This document shows, piece after piece, positions 10,864-36,557 of a stretch of 64,000 bases of DNA. The number at the start of each line of letters is the position of its first letter. The first letter of the stretch is position 1. A program made the translations under genes and the position numbers. The DNA is taken from positions 1,240,001 to 1,304,000 of the forward strand of contig NZ_OCNH01000001.1 in NCBI RefSeq assembly GCF_900230225.1, read 5' to 3'. The notes under the pieces are model-generated. The model saw only the letters and a list, made by a program, of their open reading frames with translations, was not told where the DNA came from and did not search any database. The DNA comes from Spirosoma fluviale. Lineage in GTDB: Bacteria; Bacteroidota; Bacteroidia; Cytophagales; Spirosomataceae.

Positions 10864-11373
10864 TTAAACTGTTAGCACCCTAACCGTCACCGAAAGTTGG
10901 CCAACATGCCGCATGGTATGCTCTGCCGCATGTGTTAGCAAACCAATCATGGTTGAGGGCAGTTGTGCCCGACCAACGCCCCGGATGTCGGTCAATGTGC
11001 TTTCATCAACAAGGCGTAATTGGTCAAGCGCATCTTCCACCTGTTTCTCAAATTTATGAACCAGTTCCGGCACGGATAATACATTATCCTCGGGCTTTCC
11101 TTCCGAGTGTAAAGCCGCTAACTGGGCTTCCGACAACGCTTCCTGCCGGGCATACGTGAACAAACGGTCAAGTACACCCGTCAGGTGCTGTAGGTGAAAG
11201 CCGACCGAAGCTATATTGGCAGGACGCTCCCAAAGTCGTGTTTCCGGAAAATCAGTCATCAAAGCATGGACCTCTTCGTGCGCCTGCATCAGGGCGTGGG
11301 CAACGGGTTGTACCAAAGGAGGAATGTTGGAAAGTGGACCCCGTAGCCAGACTTCTCTGGTTTCTGTAGCCAT
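10864..11373 (-). CDS. DinB family protein
   Basis: A 169-residue four-helix-bundle protein of the DinB/YfiT type, members of which bind a metal through three histidines and often act as thiol-dependent transferases. Visible candidates are the HLQHLTGVLDR helix (about residues 60-70) and the C-terminal LLTHAAEHTMRHVGQL (about 145-160), where family histidines lie. It starts 6 bases downstream of the SDR gene and is likely cotranscribed with it. Substrate unknown. Confidence 0.82.
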   Translation of the reverse strand: MATETREVWLRGPLSNIPPLVQPVAHALMQAHEEVHALMTDFPETRLWERPANIASVGFHLQHLTGVLDRLFTYARQEALSEAQLAALHSEGKPEDNVLSVPELVHKFEKQVEDALDQLRLVDESTLTDIRGVGRAQLPSTMIGLLTHAAEHTMRHVGQLSVTVRVLTV

Positions 11374-11379
11374 AATGAG

Positions 11380-12168
11380 TTAAATTACCGTACCACCATC
11401 GGCATAAAATAAGCTGCCAGTGCTGTAGGACGACGCACTGGAGGCCAGAAACAGGGCCAGTGGACTGATCTCATCAACGGTTCCCATGCGGGCAATAGGA
11501 ATACGATTCGTGAAATGTTCCAGAATGCTCTCGTTCTGCCAAAGGGCCTGACTGAATTTGGTTTTAATGAGACCGGGGCAAATGGCATTGACGCGGATTC
11601 CATCCGGACCCCATTCCTTCGCTAATACTTTCGTGAGCATATTGAGTGATGCCTTGCTGACACTGTACATACCGAGGCCCGGATCCGGCGTGTGGCCGGC
11701 AATGCTACTGATCATAATGATGCTGCCACCGCCCCGTGCTTTCATGCTTGAATAACAGAGCTTGCTTAACTCAAAAGGAGCTTTCACATTGGCCTGCATA
11801 ATTTTGTCGAAGGCGGCCCCATCGCAGTCGAGGGAGGGGCCGAACACCGGATTCGACGCTGCATTATTGACGAGTATATCAATGCCGCCATAAGTGGCAA
11901 TACTCTTATCGACTAGTTGTTGAAGCTGAGCCATGTCGCCCACATGGGCAGCAATGCCGGTAGCCTCGCCCCCCTGCGCCCGAATGTCGCTGGCAAGTGC
12001 GTCGCACGCATCCTGCTTACGGCTACTAATGACCACTTTGGCACCAAAACGGGCAAATACGCGGGCCATGTCTTCGCCAATTCCCTTACTGGCTCCGGTA
12101 ATAATGGCGACCTTGCCTGTGAGGTCGAAAATAGCTTTTTCAGAAAGGGTAATCTGTTGTTGTTCCAT
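11380..12168 (-). CDS. Short-chain dehydrogenase/reductase (SDR)
   Basis: A 262-residue classical SDR. The Rossmann glycine motif TGASKGIGE lies near residues 24-32, NNAAS near 100, the catalytic Ser in IISISS-like IMISSIAG near 155, and the YSVSK active-site Tyr/Lys near 168-172. The C-terminus ALFLASSASSYSTGSLFYAD is typical of the FabG-like, glucose 1-dehydrogenase-like group. The segment VVISSRKQDACDAL after the second strand favours NADP. It precedes the DinB gene with a 6-base gap. Substrate unknown. Confidence 0.88.
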   Translation of the reverse strand: MEQQQITLSEKAIFDLTGKVAIITGASKGIGEDMARVFARFGAKVVISSRKQDACDALASDIRAQGGEATGIAAHVGDMAQLQQLVDKSIATYGGIDILVNNAASNPVFGPSLDCDGAAFDKIMQANVKAPFELSKLCYSSMKARGGGSIIMISSIAGHTPDPGLGMYSVSKASLNMLTKVLAKEWGPDGIRVNAICPGLIKTKFSQALWQNESILEHFTNRIPIARMGTVDEISPLALFLASSASSYSTGSLFYADGGTVI

Positions 12169-12269: not shown

Positions 12270-13466
12270 TTATTTCTCAAAAAAGCAGACCGAACCGCCC
12301 ACCCAGTCTTTATTTTTATTGAAGTTGACGCCAATCATTTCACCCCGGCTCAAGCGACTGAGATTAGTAAGCAATGTAGGTTGTTTATCCTCTTTTGGCC
12401 AGATGAACAGCATCCGGATTTCGCATTTCACCAGCCCGTCCGGCGATTGAATGACGGGTTCATACTTAACCTTGCGCTGAAGCAGGTAACCATCCCGCTG
12501 ATGTCCCGGTATCGCATCCAGGTCGTCGGCCGAAATGTTCAGTTTAACGCCACTGCCCGCAAAAGAGAACAAGGGCTTCAGTACATAATTTTCTAAGTCC
12601 TCAGGGTAACTGCTTAAGTCAGACAGGTAATAACTGGCGGGTACGTAGGGGCTTTTCAGCAAAGGGAGGGTGTACTTACTAATTCGGAAAAACCAGTTTG
12701 GATGCCCAACCCAGTCGACATCCACATCATCGGTCAGATGAAAGTCGGTCTGAAGGTCGGGATAGTTCTGGAGATCGTCGAAAATCAGTCGGTTATAAAT
12801 CCGCTTGATTCGAATCAAGCTGCCGTCTTTCTCATAATATAAAGCTCGTCCGTCCTTCTTAATTTTCGTAATACAAACGGCTGGTATTCCGAGGTATTTC
12901 TCAGCCAGAACAAAGTCAATCCGGGTCTTTTGTTTTTCCGGATAGATTTCCAGCAGAATGACCTCTTCAGGCCGCTCATCGCCTACAATCATCTGGCGTA
13001 ACTGATCCAGATAAGCTGCGTTATCGGCAACCGTGAATAAATGTGAGAGATTTTCCGGAATGGGGTAAAGGCTCCGAAACAGGCTGGCCAGATAGGGCTG
13101 AAAACAATACAGCGACGGAAAGCCCTGAAATTCAATTAACTGTGGAGTTAATTCTCCCTGTTCGTCCAGACAAACCGCAAAATCGACAGCCATAAACTGC
13201 GTGTGGGCATCCTCATTCGGCACCCGTTGATCCAGCGGTATGGCTTTATCAGTCAGGGTTTTAAAGTCATCGCCGGTGACGACAGAAATAATATCGTCGC
13301 AAGCCTGTACAAGCTTATCGGTTAAGACTTTCGGGACGAAAATGGGCGTTTCGGCTACCCGGAAATCCAGTTGACCGGGAAAATCAGTATCAACTTTAGC
13401 CAAAAAAGCCCGGTAGCTCTCCGGGCTAAAGGCTTGATTAAAGGCTTCTCTGACAGGCTTAATCAT
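12270..13466 (-). CDS. ATP-grasp-like ligase of uncharacterised family
   Basis: A 398-residue cytoplasmic protein without signal peptide or membrane segment. Weak ATP-grasp features are in the C-terminal half: NYVLKPLFSFAGSGVKL (lysine plus glycine-rich loop, about residues 300-316), LLQRKVKYEPVI, CEIRMLFIW, and a final GVNFNKNKD that could supply the metal-binding Asn. The N-terminal half has QFMAVDFAVCLDEQG and QLIEFQGFPSL. It is third in line after the GCS2 ligase and the glutamine amidotransferase on the same strand, which suggests amide or peptide bond formation. This is inferred from faint motifs and context; the fold needs a profile search. Confidence 0.6.
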   Translation of the reverse strand: MIKPVREAFNQAFSPESYRAFLAKVDTDFPGQLDFRVAETPIFVPKVLTDKLVQACDDIISVVTGDDFKTLTDKAIPLDQRVPNEDAHTQFMAVDFAVCLDEQGELTPQLIEFQGFPSLYCFQPYLASLFRSLYPIPENLSHLFTVADNAAYLDQLRQMIVGDERPEEVILLEIYPEKQKTRIDFVLAEKYLGIPAVCITKIKKDGRALYYEKDGSLIRIKRIYNRLIFDDLQNYPDLQTDFHLTDDVDVDWVGHPNWFFRISKYTLPLLKSPYVPASYYLSDLSSYPEDLENYVLKPLFSFAGSGVKLNISADDLDAIPGHQRDGYLLQRKVKYEPVIQSPDGLVKCEIRMLFIWPKEDKQPTLLTNLSRLSRGEMIGVNFNKNKDWVGGSVCFFEK

Positions 13467-13521
13467 AAGGCGTTTGGGTATATCGGGCCGAAACAGACTA
13501 GCTCCCGGCTCCGTAGTAGAG

Positions 13522-13559
13522 TACTGGATATGCCATCTATTTAAATGGCATATCCAGTA
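13522..13559. repeat. Perfect 15-base inverted repeat after the amidotransferase gene
   Basis: TACTGGATATGCCAT (13522-13536) and ATGGCATATCCAGTA (13545-13559) surround an 8-base loop. It lies 7 bases past the amidotransferase stop and before the ATP-grasp-like gene. There is no T run on the minus strand, so it may be an attenuator or mRNA stabiliser rather than a full terminator. Confidence 0.65.
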
Positions 13560-13565
13560 TTGCGG

Positions 13566-14402
13566 TTAGGCAACTTCGTGTTCTTCAACGGTTGACGATA
13601 ATGACTGAATAGCCTGGCGCAAAAAGCCGGGCAGAATAACCGACTCGGTGAGTGCAATTTTATCAGGGTCCTGAAGGTAAGATACCATGTCGTCGTATTT
13701 TTCCTGACCAAAATTGAGGACGATATGATTGCGTTTTTCGGGCTGTAAGAAATAGCGCAACATGCCTTCATTATCGGCTTCGGGGTGAAACTGCGTACCG
13801 ATAATTTCGGGGGAGAAGCGCATGGCCATAACCGCCCGATCCAGCAACACGTGGGGCCTGATTTTTTCCAGACATAAAATTTCTGCACCCATTTCGTTCA
13901 TTCGCTCAGCATCGGGGCTGGTGATTTGGTAATCGCGTGAGTCGACAGCGAAGAATGGATCGGGTAGTCCTTCCAGCAACGCTTCCGAATCGCCTTCATC
14001 CGTTTTGTGTACCGGGAAAATACCAAATGATGTTGATTTACGGCGACTTAGTAGGCCTAAATTTAAGTGACGCACAACCAATTGAAATGAATGGCAAATC
14101 AGGAACACATATTTTTTCCGTTCGTTTTGCGCGTTCCAGTCGAAAATCTGGTCGATAAGCTCAAAATACTGGCTTTCCCACTCATCGGATGATGCCATGG
14201 GACTACCCGGCCCACCCGACGAAATATAGATGTCGTAATCCAGATTGGGCAGGTCGTTGTTGGCACGAACGTCAAAAACATCGAATGCTAAATCAGCATG
14301 CTCGTTTCCCTGTACGTTTCGAATTATGTGCAAAATACAACGCATGCCTTCGTTGGCATGGTTGTTATTCATATCGAGAACAGCAATTTTTACTAAGCTC
14401 AT
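13566..14402 (-). CDS. Type 1 glutamine amidotransferase-like protein
   Basis: A 278-residue class I (triad) amidotransferase. The oxyanion segment SSGGPGSP is near 61-68, the nucleophile is Cys103 in LICHSFQLV, and His206 and Glu208 are in GTQFHPEAD. The elbow is unusual: the family form is GxCxGxQ, while here it reads I-C-H-S-F-Q, lacking both flanking glycines. The triad is intact, so it should hydrolyse a gamma-glutamyl amide, either giving ammonia to a partner or cleaving a gamma-glutamyl product. It lies 48 bases after the GCS2 ligase and before the ATP-grasp-like gene. Confidence 0.85.
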   Translation of the reverse strand: MSLVKIAVLDMNNNHANEGMRCILHIIRNVQGNEHADLAFDVFDVRANNDLPNLDYDIYISSGGPGSPMASSDEWESQYFELIDQIFDWNAQNERKKYVFLICHSFQLVVRHLNLGLLSRRKSTSFGIFPVHKTDEGDSEALLEGLPDPFFAVDSRDYQITSPDAERMNEMGAEILCLEKIRPHVLLDRAVMAMRFSPEIIGTQFHPEADNEGMLRYFLQPEKRNHIVLNFGQEKYDDMVSYLQDPDKIALTESVILPGFLRQAIQSLSSTVEEHEVA

Positions 14403-14450
14403 AGAGTAATGTTACGGCTAACTACTAGTTAATAATGGATCGAGAAATAA

Positions 14451-15551
14451 CTATATAATACCAAAAGAAGTTTCTTCAACTATGTAATTTACCACCTGTT
14501 TGAGATCGTTTGTTTGCTGAAAAACAGCCAGTTGCCGATCCGCACCAGTCCCCATTTCGAGGATTTTAAGCACGTATTCGCATTCGGAACGGCTACCAAG
14601 TTCGTCAACAACATCGTCGATAAAGTTCAGCAATTCATGGATCAGTTCATGGGTTGGTACTTCAATCTGCTTGCCAAAGTCAATCAGTTTTCCCTCAATA
14701 CCATACCGGGCCGCTCGCCATTTGTTTTCATTGATTAGAATCCGGCGATAAGGTCGGAAGTTGAGGTTTTGCTGGTGAAGCTTATAAATTTTAGCCACCA
14801 GTGCCTGCATGATGGCCGCAAGGCAAATGGTTTCATCAACCCGCATCGGCACATCGCAAATGCGAAATTCAATGGTGTCGAAGAAGGGATGTAGACGGAT
14901 GTCCCACCAGATTTTCTTGCCATTGTCGATACAGCCGGTTTTCACCAGTAGATTGATGTATTCATCATACTCCGCTGCCGAAGAAAAGAAATCCGGGATA
15001 CCGGTTCGGGGAAACTTATCGAATACCTTCGATCGGTACGATTTGAAGCCTGTATTCCGGCCCCGCCAGAAGGGCGAATTGGTCGAAAGGGCGTAAATGT
15101 GCGGCAGGAAATATCGCACTGCATTCATGATCTGAACCCCTTCATTCCTGTTTTCGATACCCACGTGTACGTGCAACCCAAAAATCAGGTTCGAGCGGGC
15201 TACGTCGCGCAGTTCGTCGATCAGTCGGTCATAACGTTCGTTAGGGGTAATGAGCTGCTCCTGCCAATCCGAAAAGGGGTGCGTTCCGGCAGCTGCAATC
15301 TTTAAATTCTGTTTTTCCGCCAGTTCGATAATCATCTTTCGGAGATAGGTGACCTCCTGACGTGCATCCTGAATATTATTGCAGATATTCGTACCAACCT
15401 CAACGACGGCCTGATGCATTTCGGCCTTTACGCGTTCCTGAAGAACAATTTGGCCGCCATCAACAATCTTTGACATGTGAGACCGTAACTCGCCCGTAGC
15501 AGGGTCTATGGTTTGAAATTCTTCTTCTATTCCTAAAGTGAAAACGGGCAT
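14451..15551 (-). CDS. Carboxylate-amine ligase, GCS2/YbdK family
   Basis: A 366-residue glutamine-synthetase-fold ligase of the glutamate-cysteine ligase 2 family, which forms amide bonds from a carboxylate and an amine using ATP. The N-terminus TLGIEEEFQTIDPATGEL carries the IEEE metal/ATP motif. Further family blocks are FGLHVHVGIENR (about 120-131), LSTNSPFWRGRNTGFKSYR (about 150-168) and IEFRICDVPMRVDET. Length is normal. It is first of three genes on the minus strand. The substrates are unknown; true glutathione synthesis is less likely because no GshB lies beside it. Confidence 0.92.
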   Translation of the reverse strand: MPVFTLGIEEEFQTIDPATGELRSHMSKIVDGGQIVLQERVKAEMHQAVVEVGTNICNNIQDARQEVTYLRKMIIELAEKQNLKIAAAGTHPFSDWQEQLITPNERYDRLIDELRDVARSNLIFGLHVHVGIENRNEGVQIMNAVRYFLPHIYALSTNSPFWRGRNTGFKSYRSKVFDKFPRTGIPDFFSSAAEYDEYINLLVKTGCIDNGKKIWWDIRLHPFFDTIEFRICDVPMRVDETICLAAIMQALVAKIYKLHQQNLNFRPYRRILINENKWRAARYGIEGKLIDFGKQIEVPTHELIHELLNFIDDVVDELGSRSECEYVLKILEMGTGADRQLAVFQQTNDLKQVVNYIVEETSFGII

Positions 15552-29805: not shown

Positions 29806-31167
29806 TTATACAGCATCAGACAAACTCGTGAACGTGAAGTCACGAATTTTCATTGGCGGTATCAGATTGCCACCCGCGCGAACAGGTTTGCCCAGCGCTT
29901 CGACGTTATTCAGCATGATCACCGGGCTTTCGTTGAACCGGAAATTCTTGATCGGGAATTTGATCTGGCCGTTTTCGATGTAGAATGTCCCGTCGCGCGT
30001 CAGGCCCGTGTACAGCTGGGTTTGTGGGTCAACGGCGCGGATGTACCAGAAACGCGTAACCAGAATCCCTTTGTCGGTGCTTTTGATCAGGTCGGCCAGT
30101 GATTGGGTACCACCGAGCATAATGAAACCTCCTGGCGCCGGAACAGGCTGAACGCCTTTTTTGTCGGCCCAATAGCGGGAGTAGAACATATTCTTCACCA
30201 CGCCCTTCTCGATCCAGGTTTGTTTTTGCTGGGGCAGACCATCGCCACCACCGCCACCAAAACGGCCACCTCCGCCACCACCACCGCCCCCGCCAAAGGG
30301 CGAGAGTGGTAAGTCAGCATTCATGGGGTCAGAGATAAAGGTAACCCGCTCATCAAAAAGCTTCTCGTTCAGGCGGGTGCCTCCGCCTTTCTTGCTTAGA
30401 AAACTCCGCCCTTCATCGGCCGAACGGGCATCCATACTACGGACCATGTTTTGCAATAGCTCAACAGAAGCGGTTGGTTCCAGAATGACGGTGTATTTAC
30501 CCGGCTCCAGGGCTCTGGCGCTTGCCGAGGCCATCGCTTTTTGCATCGCAATCTCGGTAGCCGCCTTGGTGCTGAGTTTGCTGACATCGTTGACATCGGG
30601 GTTGGCATAACCCGAACCCAGGCCATCGGCCGTACGCACGGTAATCGAGAAATCCACGCTGGTTGCCCGGTTGTAGCCGAACAGCCCTTTGCTATTGCCA
30701 ATAGCCGTAAAACCGGTGGTGTCTTCCATGTACCCGGCGGCTGTCAGGTTTTTCTTGCGACAAGGATCAAGACTGTCGAAAGCGGCTTGTGCACGGAAAT
30801 CGGGCGTAATCTTTGCCGTGCTTTCGGCGTAGGTGTTGGTTTCAAGATACGTTTGTGGGCCCAGCATTGGCATGTACTCCGGGTTTTCGGGAGCCAGTTT
30901 GGCGATTTCTTCGGCCCGTCGAACGGTTTTTTCCAGCGACACATCGTCAAACTCGTTGATAGTCGATGTACCGGAACGCTTGCCGTAAACGGAGGTTACA
31001 GCCAGAGCCAGATTGTCCGATTCACCACTGGTTGATACTGAGTTACGGGCGTAACGAATGTTGCCGGTACGGCCACCTGACAGACTGACGCTCATTTCAT
31101 CAGACTTCGAGTAGCTCAGGACCTTGTCAATTATCTTCTTTGCCTCTTCTTTTGTTAAGATTGCCAT
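29806..31167 (-). CDS. TldE/PmbA family protein, copy 2
   Basis: A 453-residue paralogue of the protein at 26254-27591, sharing the blocks GNIRYARNSVSTSGESDN, KLAPENPEY and GLTRDGTFYIENGQIK. It lacks HExxxH and has no signal peptide, so it should be the structural partner of TldD copy 2, whose gene ends 103 bases upstream. An insert of about 25 residues near 287-312 is almost pure glycine (15 Gly of 18 in its core), absent from copy 1 at the same place. The Gly run is in frame and translated, and may be a flexible loop. Confidence 0.92.
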   Translation of the reverse strand: MAILTKEEAKKIIDKVLSYSKSDEMSVSLSGGRTGNIRYARNSVSTSGESDNLALAVTSVYGKRSGTSTINEFDDVSLEKTVRRAEEIAKLAPENPEYMPMLGPQTYLETNTYAESTAKITPDFRAQAAFDSLDPCRKKNLTAAGYMEDTTGFTAIGNSKGLFGYNRATSVDFSITVRTADGLGSGYANPDVNDVSKLSTKAATEIAMQKAMASASARALEPGKYTVILEPTASVELLQNMVRSMDARSADEGRSFLSKKGGGTRLNEKLFDERVTFISDPMNADLPLSPFGGGGGGGGGGRFGGGGGDGLPQQKQTWIEKGVVKNMFYSRYWADKKGVQPVPAPGGFIMLGGTQSLADLIKSTDKGILVTRFWYIRAVDPQTQLYTGLTRDGTFYIENGQIKFPIKNFRFNESPVIMLNNVEALGKPVRAGGNLIPPMKIRDFTFTSLSDAV

Positions 31168-31270
31168 TTGTTAGTTCATTAAGTGTAGATGTGGAGTAGT
31201 AAACTAGGGAAGTGGAGGGCCGTGTTGACGAACCTACTAACTGCACTAGTCTACTACTTTACCATTTCTA

Positions 31271-32929
31271 CTATATTTTCCGACCTGTATTGATCACGTT
31301 GACTCCGTTGAAGCGGGTGGTGGCGCTGCCATGCGATACAGCGCTAACCTGAGAGGGTTGCCCTTTGCCATCGAAGAACGAACCGAAGGTACGGTAGTCG
31401 TCTTTATCGCAAAGCTGAGCGCAGGAGTTCCAGAATTCCTGGGTGTTGGACTGATAGGCTACATCGTCGAGCATTCCAACGATCTCCCCATTCTTGATTT
31501 CGTAGAACAGCTGTCCGCCAAACTGGAAGTTATAGCGCTGCTGGTCAATGGAATAGGAGCCACGGCCGATAATGTAGATGCCTTTATCGACCCCTTTGAT
31601 CATGTCGAAAACAGATCGTTTTTCATTACCCGCTTTCAACGACACGTTCGGCATGCGCTGGAACTGGACAGAGTCCCAGTTGTCGGCGTAGCAACAGCCA
31701 TTCGATTCTTTCTCGCCCAGGATAGCGACCTGATCGCGGATGGCCTGGTAGTTGACCAGAATACCGTCTTTGATCAAATCCCACTCTTTGCAGGGAACGC
31801 CCTCGTCATCGTAACCAACGGTGCCGAGTGTGTGCGGCTGCGTTTTATCGGCGACGATATTGACCAGCTTGCTGCCGTAGTTGAATGACTTGGTTTTCCA
31901 CTTGTCCAGCGTAGCAAAGCTGGTTCCGGCATAGTTGGCTTCGTAACCCAGTACCCGGTCGAGTTCGGTGGGGTGACCAACCGATTCGTGGATGGTAAGG
32001 CCGAGGTGGTTCGGGTCCAGTACGAGGTCGTACTTGCCCGGTTGTACCGTTTTAGCGGTCAATTTCTCCTTGGCCTGTTTGGCGGCCAGAATGGCATCTT
32101 CCAGCATATCGTACGAATTACGATAGCCGACAAGTCCGTTGGGCGCTTTGATTTTTTCGGAAGCCAGCCCGTCCAGATACTCGTATCCCATGCCCATGGG
32201 TGAGCTAAGCGCATCGCGGGTTTTGAATTTGCCTACTGCCCGGTCAACGGCCGATACCGTGAACGTAGGCCAGATACGGTGTACGTCCTGATCAATGTAC
32301 GACCCGTCCGTCGAGGCAAAGTACTTCTGTTCGTTTACGAAGAACAGGTTCGATGTAACGAACGCGGCCCCGTTTTTCATGGCTTCGCCGTTCACATTCA
32401 TCAGCAGGTCTATTTTCTGCTGAACCGGAATTTCAAAGGCATTTTTCTTGATGGGTGTTTTCCAGACGACTTCCCCAACACCCTTTTGTGGGGCCAGTTG
32501 GACGGGTTCGGTCTGGAGTTTGGCGTTTGCTTTCGCAATGGCTACGGCTGTTTCGGCACATTTGGCAATGCCATCGGGCGTTACGTTGCTGGTGGCAGAA
32601 AAGCCCCATGTTCCGTTGGCGATCACCCGGATACCGACCCCAAATGACTCCGCATTGGAGATGTTCTGAACCCGATTTTCGCGCGTAAAAACATACTGTT
32701 GAAGGTAGCGGCCAATGCGAACGTCGGTGTAACTGGCACCTTTGCTTTTGGCTGCATTGAGGGCAATATCGGCTAATCGTTTCTTGGCGGCATTGTCGAT
32801 ACCTACACCATGACCGCTTGCTTCAAGCAGGTACTCAGCCGATACAGAATTGCCAAGAACCGGAACCCCAGCCGCTAACAGACTGCCAACACCCAGGCCA
32901 GACAATTGAATAAAGTCTCGTCTTTGCAT
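31271..32929 (-). CDS. TldD family metalloprotease with Tat signal, copy 2
   Basis: A 552-residue paralogue of 27704-29344, with HESVGH at residues 314-319 and the same downstream ELDRVLGYEANYAGTSFA segment. The N-terminus MQRRDFIQLSGLGVGSLLAA is again a twin-arginine signal. Compared with copy 1 it carries a short insert (GHGVGID) after the signal region and differs through the second half, so the copies are old duplicates. It heads the run TldD2, TldE2, GxxExxY, TldD1, TldE1 on the minus strand. Confidence 0.93.
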   Translation of the reverse strand: MQRRDFIQLSGLGVGSLLAAGVPVLGNSVSAEYLLEASGHGVGIDNAAKKRLADIALNAAKSKGASYTDVRIGRYLQQYVFTRENRVQNISNAESFGVGIRVIANGTWGFSATSNVTPDGIAKCAETAVAIAKANAKLQTEPVQLAPQKGVGEVVWKTPIKKNAFEIPVQQKIDLLMNVNGEAMKNGAAFVTSNLFFVNEQKYFASTDGSYIDQDVHRIWPTFTVSAVDRAVGKFKTRDALSSPMGMGYEYLDGLASEKIKAPNGLVGYRNSYDMLEDAILAAKQAKEKLTAKTVQPGKYDLVLDPNHLGLTIHESVGHPTELDRVLGYEANYAGTSFATLDKWKTKSFNYGSKLVNIVADKTQPHTLGTVGYDDEGVPCKEWDLIKDGILVNYQAIRDQVAILGEKESNGCCYADNWDSVQFQRMPNVSLKAGNEKRSVFDMIKGVDKGIYIIGRGSYSIDQQRYNFQFGGQLFYEIKNGEIVGMLDDVAYQSNTQEFWNSCAQLCDKDDYRTFGSFFDGKGQPSQVSAVSHGSATTRFNGVNVINTGRKI

Positions 32930-33541: not shown

Positions 33542-34636
33542 TTACTTCTTGCCTTTCTTTGGTTTAGCCTCTTCTTTTTCCTTGTCAGCTTTCTTCGGCT
33601 TATCCTTTTTTTCTTCTTTTTCTGCCTTTGGAGCTTCTTTTGTCTTAGGCCCTTCCGACGACTTCACATCGCCAGCAGGTTCAGCAGGCTGAAGCATTAC
33701 CGAATTGCGGACAAACGAACCCCAGGTCAGGTTATCCTGTCCTTTTTTCACGCGCTGAGCCCGCTCAATGGCCATGTTGGCAGCTGCTTCAACGACCCAT
33801 TCAAAATTCTCCTGACCAACCGAATGGATGTCGGCATCGGGGGCCGGGTTGCAAAAGTCAATGGCAATGGGGATACCATCACGCACGGCAAACTCAACCG
33901 TATTAAAATCGTAGCCCAGACCGTGGTTCAGTTTCAGGACATAGTCGGTCATGGTTTCCAGTAGTTTTTTACCTGCATCGCCGGTTGTTTGCATTTCGGC
34001 TGCGTAGCGGAGGTGGTGCGGATTCCGTGGCTCGTAAGGCATAATACGTACGTCTTTTCCGCCAATGCAGTAACAACGGAAATAGTCCGTAAAGTCAATT
34101 GCTTCCTGATACAACATGACCAGTTGCCCCGTTTCGTCGTAGGCTTTGAACATCTGGTCGGGATTGTCGACTTTATAAACACTCTTCCAGCCACCACCCG
34201 AGTGAGGTTTCATGAAAGCCGGGAAGCCAATGTGGTTGAAAATGCCTTCCCAGTTCATATGCTGCAGGTTACGAAACGAATTGTGATTGGTATCGTCCGG
34301 ACGGTCTTTAGATGGCAGCAGAATCGTTTTCGGAACAGGAACGCCTAACTGAACGGCCAGAGCATTGTTAAAAAACTTCTCGTCGGCACTCCACCAGAAG
34401 GGGTTATTGACAACGGCCGTTCCGGTTAAGGCGGCATTCTTTAAGAAAGCTTTATAAAAGGGTACATCCTGAGAAATCCGGTCTATAATGACGGCATAGT
34501 CGGTCGGTACGCTTTGTTCGACCTGATCAATGCTGACAAACTCAGCCGGAAACTGGCTTTGTTTTTCATTAACCCGGTCTACAAATGCCTGAGGAAACGT
34601 GTTCTCCTGGCCGAATAAAATCCCAATTTTATTCAT
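33542..34636 (-). CDS. ATP-grasp domain protein (RimK-like), with a Lys/Glu-rich tail
   Basis: A 364-residue ATP-grasp ligase. The central domain contains FPAFMKPHSGGGWKSVYKV (lysine and glycine-rich loop, about residues 139-157), LYQEAIDFTDYFRCYCIG (about 174-191), VRIMPYEPRN, and FNTVEFAVRDGIPIAIDFCN (acidic ligands and Asn, about 243-262), as expected for a carboxylate-amine or thiol ligase. The last 45 residues are almost entirely Lys, Glu, Ala, Pro and Asp (KEAPKAEKEEKKDKPKKADK) and probably disordered. It follows the esterase gene at 34865-35569 on the same strand. Substrate unknown. Confidence 0.87.
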   Translation of the reverse strand: MNKIGILFGQENTFPQAFVDRVNEKQSQFPAEFVSIDQVEQSVPTDYAVIIDRISQDVPFYKAFLKNAALTGTAVVNNPFWWSADEKFFNNALAVQLGVPVPKTILLPSKDRPDDTNHNSFRNLQHMNWEGIFNHIGFPAFMKPHSGGGWKSVYKVDNPDQMFKAYDETGQLVMLYQEAIDFTDYFRCYCIGGKDVRIMPYEPRNPHHLRYAAEMQTTGDAGKKLLETMTDYVLKLNHGLGYDFNTVEFAVRDGIPIAIDFCNPAPDADIHSVGQENFEWVVEAAANMAIERAQRVKKGQDNLTWGSFVRNSVMLQPAEPAGDVKSSEGPKTKEAPKAEKEEKKDKPKKADKEKEEAKPKKGKK

Positions 34637-34864: not shown

Positions 34865-35569
34865 TTAAATCATGCCTAAGTAGCGCGGGAACTGGTCTTT
34901 CCAGACGGGCCAGTCGTGGTTGCCCCAGGGTGTTACATCCAGCTGATGACGAATTCCCTTCTGACGCAGTATGCCTGAAATCTGATAATTCGAGTCTTTG
35001 GTGAAATCGTATTCTGACGTTCCCAGCACAATGTTCATGTTGTAAAACTCATTGTTCTGGGCATTGGGCAGAAAATCGGGCGGGTTATTGAAGTACACGT
35101 TTTCGTCGTAATAATCGCCCAGAAACGAACGAATATTAAACGCGGCTCCCATCGTTATCAAATGGCCTACCTGCTCCGGATGGCGGAAGGCAAAATTCAA
35201 TGCATGGTACCCTCCGAAAGAAGCTCCCGATACGCCAATTTTCTGGACATTGCACTCCCGCTGAATACCCGGAACCAGTTCTTCGTGTAGAAAACGATCG
35301 TACAAAACGTGGTTCCAGATCCGGGTGCCGGGATGCAAGTGTTTGGCATACCAACTATCGCGGTCAATGCTGTCGATACAATACAATTTAACTTTCCCTG
35401 TTTCAACAAACCACCGGGCAGTCTCGGTCAGACCAAAATCTTTGTATTCATAATAATGACCCATTGAGGTTGGAAAAAGAACGACCGGGTAGCCCCAGTT
35501 TCCATAAACCAGCATCTCGATGTCGCGGCCCAGATGGTGCGAATACCACTTACGATAATCTTCCTGCAC
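34865..35569 (-). CDS. Alpha/beta-hydrolase esterase (COG4947-like)
   Basis: A 234-residue cytoplasmic alpha/beta-hydrolase without signal peptide. The nucleophile elbow is GVSGASFGGYHAL (Ser in G-A-S-F-G, about residues 112-124). The acid and base are plausible in LGTSEYDF (Asp, about 178-185) and WGNHDWPVWK (His, about 214-223). The N-terminus YRKWYSHHLGRDIEMLVYG is typical of the COG4947 group of predicted esterases, which often neighbours ATP-grasp and GCS2 ligases. The start is GTG at 35569, since no ATG fits. It is divergent from a second esterase 112 bases away. Confidence 0.85.
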   Translation of the reverse strand: MQEDYRKWYSHHLGRDIEMLVYGNWGYPVVLFPTSMGHYYEYKDFGLTETARWFVETGKVKLYCIDSIDRDSWYAKHLHPGTRIWNHVLYDRFLHEELVPGIQRECNVQKIGVSGASFGGYHALNFAFRHPEQVGHLITMGAAFNIRSFLGDYYDENVYFNNPPDFLPNAQNNEFYNMNIVLGTSEYDFTKDSNYQISGILRQKGIRHQLDVTPWGNHDWPVWKDQFPRYLGMI

Positions 35570-35681: not shown

Positions 35682-36557
35682 GTGATTCTCTTCTTTCTGA
35701 CTTTACTGGCGCTTATGGCTGACAATATACCGGCCCTTAACCGCATCGAACCTCTCACCGTAACGGTTCGGCGCGACGATTCTCTACACTCTGTTCCTCT
35801 CAATCGAACAGTTCACCTAACTATTGTACTTCCGCCTGATTATCAGTCAACAACAAAGGTGTACCCTGTTCTATATCTGAACGATGGTCAGGATTTGCCT
35901 CGTCTGAAGATGCCGACCATTTTGGATTCGCTGTACCATAAAAAAAGTATACAACCCTTTATTCTCATTGCCATTCATGCCGGTGATCGAATCCAGGAGT
36001 ACGGCACCGCAGCACAGGCCGATTATATGAACAGGGGCAGTAAAGCGGGTATATATACCGACTTTGTTCTGACAGAACTGCTGCCTTACGTCAAAAAGTA
36101 TTACCGGGTGAGTACAGAACCGGCACAATCGGTCTTTGCCGGGTTTTCGCTGGGGGGCTTATCGGCTTTCGATATCGTGTTTCATCATCCCGAACGATTT
36201 GGTCGGGCGGGTGTTTTTTCGGGCTCATTCTGGTGGCGCAGTAAAAGCACCGCCGACGGCTATCGGGATGAAACCGACCGGATTATACACGATTTGGTAC
36301 GAAAAGGAAGTTATAACAAAACCCTCAAATTCTGGTTCGAAACCGGCACCGAGGATGAAACCAGCGATCGGAATAACAACGGTATTATTGACGCCATTGA
36401 TGACACAACCGACCTGATTGATGAACTTGTTAAAAAAGGTTATGACCGGAACAACGATATTCGGTATGTGGAAATAACGGGTGGGAAGCACGATCAGGAA
36501 ACTTGGAGTGAAATTATGCCTGATTTTCTCGGCTGGGCATTCCCTCCGCTAAAGTGA
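35682..36557 (+). CDS. Exported alpha/beta-hydrolase (esterase D-like) with a calcium-type loop
   Basis: A 291-residue protein with a signal-like N-terminus (MILFFLTLLALMADNIPA). Start is GTG 35682; ATG 35715 is possible but would remove most of the hydrophobic segment. The enterochelin esterase-like fold has YPVLYLNDGQD (about 61-71) and the elbow FAGFSLGGLSAF (about 149-160), with the catalytic His likely in TGGKHDQETW (about 263-272). A DRNNNGIIDAID segment (about 226-237) has the spacing of an EF-hand/dockerin calcium loop (D1, N3, N5, G6, I8, D12). The next gene is the GH16 glucanase, 26 bases away. Confidence 0.85.
   Translation: MILFFLTLLALMADNIPALNRIEPLTVTVRRDDSLHSVPLNRTVHLTIVLPPDYQSTTKVYPVLYLNDGQDLPRLKMPTILDSLYHKKSIQPFILIAIHAGDRIQEYGTAAQADYMNRGSKAGIYTDFVLTELLPYVKKYYRVSTEPAQSVFAGFSLGGLSAFDIVFHHPERFGRAGVFSGSFWWRSKSTADGYRDETDRIIHDLVRKGSYNKTLKFWFETGTEDETSDRNNNGIIDAIDDTTDLIDELVKKGYDRNNDIRYVEITGGKHDQETWSEIMPDFLGWAFPPLK

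Follow-up and report, generated by a model that had tools for sequence, protein, structure and literature searches.

A ligase operon of Bacteroidota, found split in Spirosoma fluviale, that may build and trim a gamma-glutamyl peptide or amide

Do two groups of ligase and hydrolase genes, separated by a gap of 18.0 kb, serve a single pathway? The question is raised by a 64,000-nucleotide stretch of the Spirosoma fluviale genome (contig NZ_OCNH01000001.1, positions 1,240,001 to 1,304,000; hereafter the window). One group (12270-15551) encodes a GCS2-type carboxylate-amine ligase (GCS2), a protein of the class I glutamine amidotransferase fold (GAT) and an ATP-grasp ligase (GRASP1); the other encodes a second ATP-grasp ligase (GRASP2) and an esterase (EST). 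A sequence-only reading of the window had suggested that the three consecutive genes might form a peptide or amide synthesis unit and that the two groups may be one system split in two. All five open reading frames (ORFs) are real, full length and on the minus strand. The idea of one system holds up: in many relatives the five genes are contiguous in a single operon, and they co-occur both over the whole phylum and inside individual genera.

When GTDB genomes were searched with a profile of GRASP1, at least 590 relatives were detected; the best 80, a set biased to close kin, were analysed. Partner genes were counted within 10 kb on each side of GRASP1, less on short contigs. GAT is present in 68 of these loci, GCS2 in 59, GRASP2 in 52 and EST in 46. 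All five genes are found in 45 loci, every gap being shorter than 700 bp in 37 of them. This arrangement is far beyond chance because the order EST-GRASP2-GCS2-GAT-GRASP1 and a single strand are shared by all 45. The tightest pair is GAT-GRASP1, with 64 of 68 gaps at 150 bp or less and 19 overlaps; gene starts were chosen mechanically, and small gaps and overlaps are approximate. A sixth gene, EST2, lies divergently beside EST or GRASP2 in 41 of the 53 loci holding either. GRASP1 stands alone in 12 of the 80 loci (three of them with full flanks) and with GAT only in 8, some on short contigs. Distances of the five proteins are correlated over the 45 loci (rho 0.31-0.73), a comparison made without a control and not used as evidence.

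Co-occurrence of the same genes was counted in 158 genomes sampled across Bacteroidota (thresholds E<=1e-3 for GRASP1 and GRASP2, 1e-10 for the others). GRASP1 is found in 52 genomes, GRASP2 in 62, GAT in 43, GCS2 in 55 and EST in 67, where EST matches below about 40% identity may be paralogues. GRASP1 and GRASP2 are together in 50 genomes (GRASP1 without GRASP2 in 2, the reverse in 12), as are GRASP1 and GCS2 (2 and 5, respectively). The weakest association is that of GRASP1 with GAT: 33 genomes have both, 19 GRASP1 without GAT, and 10 GAT without GRASP1. All five genes are present in 30 genomes and none in 86. Fisher values for these counts ignore kinship, which is dealt with better by comparison within a genus. 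Among the 121 genomes of one genus (g23), GRASP1 and GRASP2 occur together in 28 (in two of which GRASP1 is present as fragments only), 92 have neither, and one, 89% complete, has GRASP2 alone; inside this genus the operon is gained or lost as a unit. The sequence-only reading had proposed a search for co-occurrence across Bacteroidota genomes, and the two loci do co-occur. Shared order, strand and co-occurrence rule out five unrelated neighbours. Spread of the operon by plasmids is also rejected, as neither GRASP1 nor GRASP2 has a tblastn match among 72,556 plasmids.

How the operon came to be split is seen within the window's own genus. All 26 genomes searched for GRASP2 have it, and 24 of 25, the window's own included, have GRASP1; the exception is 82% complete. 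In the 24 genomes with both, the two genes are 4.2-5.5 kb apart in 5, 21-33 kb in 9 and 0.28-1.4 Mb in 4, and they lie on separate contigs in 6; in the window the distance is 21.3 kb, start to start. Four of the five close-spaced cases were read. Three (L169, L170 and L172) keep the divergent EST2 followed by EST-GRASP2-GCS2-GAT-GRASP1, with 1-2 kb at the EST/GRASP2 and GRASP2/GCS2 gaps. In L171 these gaps are 3.7 kb and 2.1 kb, and the position of EST2 would be beyond the stretch covered. Because distances within the genus run from intact to separated, the window appears to represent a mid-stage of an operon breaking apart.

What might the encoded proteins do? GCS2 matches PF04107 (E 1e-65) and, over its whole length (residues 3-364), the NCBIfam model PRK13515 "carboxylate-amine ligase" (570.6 bits, cut-off 371). 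LGIEEEFQ lies close to its N-terminus, in keeping with the earlier identification by an IEEE motif. The match of GRASP2 to the RimK-family model TIGR00768 (33.9 bits, E 2e-8) falls below the curated cut-off of 143.4, pointing to a distant relation, and a sequence search for relatives of GRASP2 with a solved structure returned none. EST belongs to the PF00756 esterases (E 1e-12); its solved-structure relatives found by sequence are weak matches.

Neither Pfam (at E<=1) nor NCBIfam (at 0.01) has a family matching GRASP1. Its AlphaFold model (pLDDT 92) nevertheless has the ATP-grasp fold of glutathione synthetases, which upholds the earlier ATP-grasp-like assignment, and the glutathione synthetase (GSS)/glutathionylspermidine synthetase (Gsp) fold is predicted to cover the whole chain. 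A GRASP1 profile searched against PDB sequences gave a single match, YgiC (E 0.02); the best-matching named relatives, among the matches listed, are Spirosoma and its kin. Residues D95, E112, Q114, R226, K297, G304, G306, E349, R351 and R371 are invariant in a 42-row alignment. The complete R-x-D...E-x-N catalytic set (R139, D141, E163 and N165 in Cp1B) is absent, the positions having been matched by motif rather than superposition: the Asp and Glu are kept as D95 and E112, whereas the catalytic Arg is replaced by Ala in 24 rows, Gln in 12, Val in 4, Cys in 1 and Thr in 1, and the catalytic Asn by Gln in all 42.

GAT matches the GATase family PF00117 (E 5e-7, 30.0 bits, cut-off 22.8) and, below cut-off, the homoserine O-succinyltransferase family PF04204 (2e-5). 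The triad C103, H206 and E208, already picked out by the sequence-only reading, does not vary in either of two alignments (19 and 36 rows). One solved-structure relative was found by sequence. In Foldseek a gamma-glutamyl peptidase (GGP1) is ranked first, but its Z is tied with those of other class I amidotransferases and MetA. All 19 GRASP1 genomes of the phylum sample that lack GAT were inspected: directly upstream of GRASP1, 9 have an Amidohydro_3 protein, 2 an M29 aminopeptidase and 8 neither. These assignments rest on family models for L085 and L059 (Amidohydro_3) and for L055 (M29) and otherwise on similarity to these, and the nine Amidohydro_3 replacements (families f36 and f39) may be a single event. 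Hydrolases at this slot in 11 GAT-less genomes favour hydrolysis over delivery of ammonia; the evidence on GAT leans to a gamma-glutamyl hydrolase rather than a glutaminase, and the protein is probably a gamma-glutamyl hydrolase or transferase. GAT and an Amidohydro_3 protein are, however, both present in L059 and L161. In L174, from the GAT-less genome G061, a 697-aa ORF directly upstream of GRASP1 resembles an M16 zinc peptidase by eye.

Further partners vary among lineages, with the theme that the ligases are accompanied by hydrolases of unrelated folds. In 16 of the 80 loci, all Cytophagales-type, a gene for an ArgD-like class III aminotransferase lies downstream of GRASP1 in the same orientation, within 200 bp. 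Six flavobacterial loci (L137, L143, L147, L150, L162 and L163) have a third ATP-grasp (GRASP3) convergent to GRASP1; in the four that were read (L137, L143, L150 and L163) it is accompanied by a PF00756-type esterase and an aminopeptidase-like gene, the L150 copy being an M17 aminopeptidase. On plasmids EST has 15 distant tblastn matches (27-35% identity), and two of three inspected, on Pararhizobium and Peptoclostridium plasmids, adjoin an ATP-grasp distantly like GRASP3. Of 10 Hymenobacter loci, 9 have a DinB_2 domain fused to EST2, and L117, the tenth, encodes the domain in the following ORF. The fusion of L105 (4243-5799, minus strand), which was compared with family models, has a mycothiol-S-transferase match; the others were assigned by similarity. 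In the window's genus a DinB gene follows GRASP1 in 11 of 24 loci (1.5-kb flanks). One 867-aa open frame (L180:2637-5240, plus strand) joins a sodium:solute symporter (Pfam SSF) to GRASP1, and in L182, of the same family, a symporter look-alike lies 18 bp before GRASP1. The fusion could hint at an imported substrate.

It is quite possible that this one metabolic operon, with EST2 divergent from EST-GRASP2-GCS2-GAT-GRASP1, makes a small gamma-glutamyl peptide or amide and trims it, following the logic of glutathione or glutathionylspermidine synthesis. Stepwise amide formation on a small molecule is suggested by the presence of two ATP-grasps, one of the GSS fold, beside a gamma-glutamyl-type ligase, and the earlier notion of a peptide or amide synthesis unit fits these ligase folds. 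The proposal draws on the observed operon, co-occurrence, splitting in the genus and conserved residues, and on the predicted folds of GRASP1 and GAT; from these we infer all reactions, their order, the substrates and the product. GCS2 would use ATP to link glutamate, through its gamma-carboxylate, to an amine or amino acid. GRASP1 would then phosphorylate the free carboxylate of this product and couple a second amine or amino acid, and GRASP2 may form a third amide bond. GAT would remove or exchange the gamma-glutamyl group through a Cys103 acyl-enzyme, as in gamma-glutamyl peptidases, and EST and EST2 would hydrolyse an ester, thioester or amide of the product.

GAT and GRASP1 might instead be a glutamine-dependent amide synthetase, in which ammonia from GAT would allow GRASP1 to convert a carboxylate made by GCS2 or GRASP2 to a carboxamide. 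The close spacing of the two genes and the 8 loci in which the other three are absent agree with this, as does the invariant Cys-His-Glu triad. GAT also outlasts the loss of GCS2, beside GRASP1 in genomes G075 and G102 and beside a circularly permuted ATP-grasp in G051. GCS2 is absent from 8 of the 43 GAT genomes; L052 and L054, from two genomes, retain GRASP2-GAT-GRASP1 without it. Three loci with GRASP2 and GAT and without GRASP1 were inspected. In L080 and L081 the permuted ATP-grasp stands between GRASP2 and GAT, with an esterase after GAT (Pfam match over cut-off in L080, below in L081), and in L082 only GRASP2 and GAT were detected, by tblastn; G149, the genome of L081, carries a GCS2 elsewhere. 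That GAT occurs without GCS2 weighs against a GAT acting solely on the product of GCS2 and keeps an amide synthetase alive. Yet GRASP1 occurs without GAT in 19 of 52 genomes, the 11 slot replacements are hydrolases not known to supply ammonia from glutamine, and the structures nearest to GAT in Foldseek include gamma-glutamyl peptidases and MetA no less than glutaminases. An amide synthetase is thus judged somewhat unlikely.

The product could also be a low-molecular-weight thiol, glutathione-like and based on gamma-Glu-Cys, that would be used by DinB-family S-transferases and S-acyl-thiol esterases. GCS2 alongside a glutathione-synthetase-fold ligase would suit a thiol, and so would the Hymenobacter EST2-DinB_2 fusions and the DinB genes behind GRASP1; S-formylglutathione hydrolases are members of PF00756. 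Each of the two DinB links, however, is limited to a single genus. Moreover, bshC, for bacillithiol, occurs in 156 of the 158 genomes, in 153 of them above its cut-off, whether or not they carry the operon; the exceptions are G146, which has operon genes, and G193, which has an EST relative only. Bacillithiol is therefore probably in use, and DinB may serve it. An operon thiol is judged quite improbable. The prevalence of bshC speaks against a bacillithiol stand-in, and replacement of bacillithiol as the main role is rejected; it does not speak against an additional compound. Very improbable, finally, is protein modification, with GRASP2 and GRASP1 attaching gamma-glutamyl or amine groups that GAT and the esterases remove. 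Known ligases of this kind do act on proteins, RimK on ribosomal protein S6 and LysX and ArgX on a carrier protein; the distant likeness of GRASP2 to RimK/LysX and the ArgD-like aminotransferases, recalling LysW pathways, argue for it. Against it, the 16 aminotransferase loci are all of one type, fold relatives of GRASP1 use small peptides and acids, and no conserved small ORF (20-79 aa) that might encode a carrier lies in or near the operon. Among 429 such ORFs compared, the largest family covers 4 loci, all of one genus; with no conserved precursor among them, a graspetide or other RiPP locus is rejected as well.

The gamma-glutamyl proposal has parallels among known systems. Synthesis of glutathione, homoglutathione and glutathionylspermidine (GshA with a GSS/Gsp synthetase) likewise pairs a GCS2-superfamily ligase with a GSS/Gsp-fold ATP-grasp. 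GRASP1 differs in having no Pfam match and in lacking the Arg and Asn of the fold's catalytic set, and the operon adds a second ATP-grasp, GAT and two esterases. E. coli YgiC and YjfC, described as peptide-spermidine ligases (PMC12568646), are 14% identical to GRASP1. Arabidopsis gamma-glutamyl peptidase 1, of the class I amidotransferase fold, is 15% identical to GAT, with Z equal to that of other class I amidotransferases and MetA. In the gamma-glutamylation cycles of Puu (the ligase PuuA and the class I amidotransferase-type hydrolase PuuD) and of butirosin (BtrJ/BtrG), as here, a gamma-glutamyl ligase is partnered by an enzyme that cleaves the gamma-glutamyl group; these ligases are from other families, and the conserved operon has no oxidase or dehydrogenase. 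Ligase-peptidase neighbourhoods are already known as a concept: Iyer et al. in 2009 reportedly surveyed amidoligase neighbourhoods, with operons mixing ATP-grasp and glutamine synthetase-fold ligases with peptidases. No description of this operon or named product was found in a library of open-licence PubMed Central papers; a family absent from the VIA-align list is not thereby excluded. What appears to be new, as far as we are aware, is the definition of the six-gene unit and of its distribution, the assignment of GRASP1 to the GSS fold, the exchange of hydrolases in the position of GAT, and the splitting by degrees within one genus.

Features of the operon and its neighbours in the window
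Feature	Coordinates	Strand	Basis
GRASP1, ATP-grasp ligase of glutathione synthetase/glutathionylspermidine synthetase fold	12270..13466	-	AlphaFold model and conserved residues
GAT, class I glutamine-amidotransferase fold, Cys103-His206-Glu208	13566..14402	-	PF00117 and alignments
GCS2, YbdK-type carboxylate-amine ligase	14451..15551	-	PF04107, NCBIfam PRK13515
GRASP2, ATP-grasp ligase, distantly RimK/LysX-like, Lys-rich C-terminal tail	33542..34636	-	TIGR00768 below cut-off
EST, alpha/beta-hydrolase esterase, first gene of the operon	34865..35569	-	PF00756
EST2, divergent PF00756 hydrolase	35682..36557	+	enterochelin esterase model below cut-off
DinB_2 protein, possible accessory downstream of GRASP1, retained in part of the genus	10864..11373	-	DinB_2 model
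Short-chain dehydrogenase lying between GRASP1 and DinB, a neighbour at genus level whose membership is doubtful	11380..12168	-	

The DinB_2 protein of the window matches its model over cut-off and a mycothiol-S-transferase model below cut-off. The earlier statement that no thiol enzyme lies nearby is therefore less than certain, as this gene adjoins the GRASP1 group. A TldD/TldE (PmbA) metallopeptidase pair (29806-32929, minus strand) is found downstream of GRASP2 in the same orientation.

A bolder version of the gamma-glutamyl proposal, which we consider unlikely, is that about one third of Bacteroidota make an undescribed glutathione-like gamma-glutamyl metabolite, a thiol or polyamine conjugate, alongside bacillithiol. 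A dedicated operon would make it through a GSS-fold ligase family not covered by any Pfam model, with its own DinB-fused transfer and clearing hydrolases. GRASP1, a protein with no Pfam match, gains a fold and a testable reaction, and an operon is caught at several stages of disintegration within one genus. With GRASP1 in 52 of 158 Bacteroidota, this ligase operon of five to six genes offers metabolite discovery a direct target; it would lead either to a new glutathione-like compound, in a phylum where bshC is almost always present, or to a new amide-building pathway.
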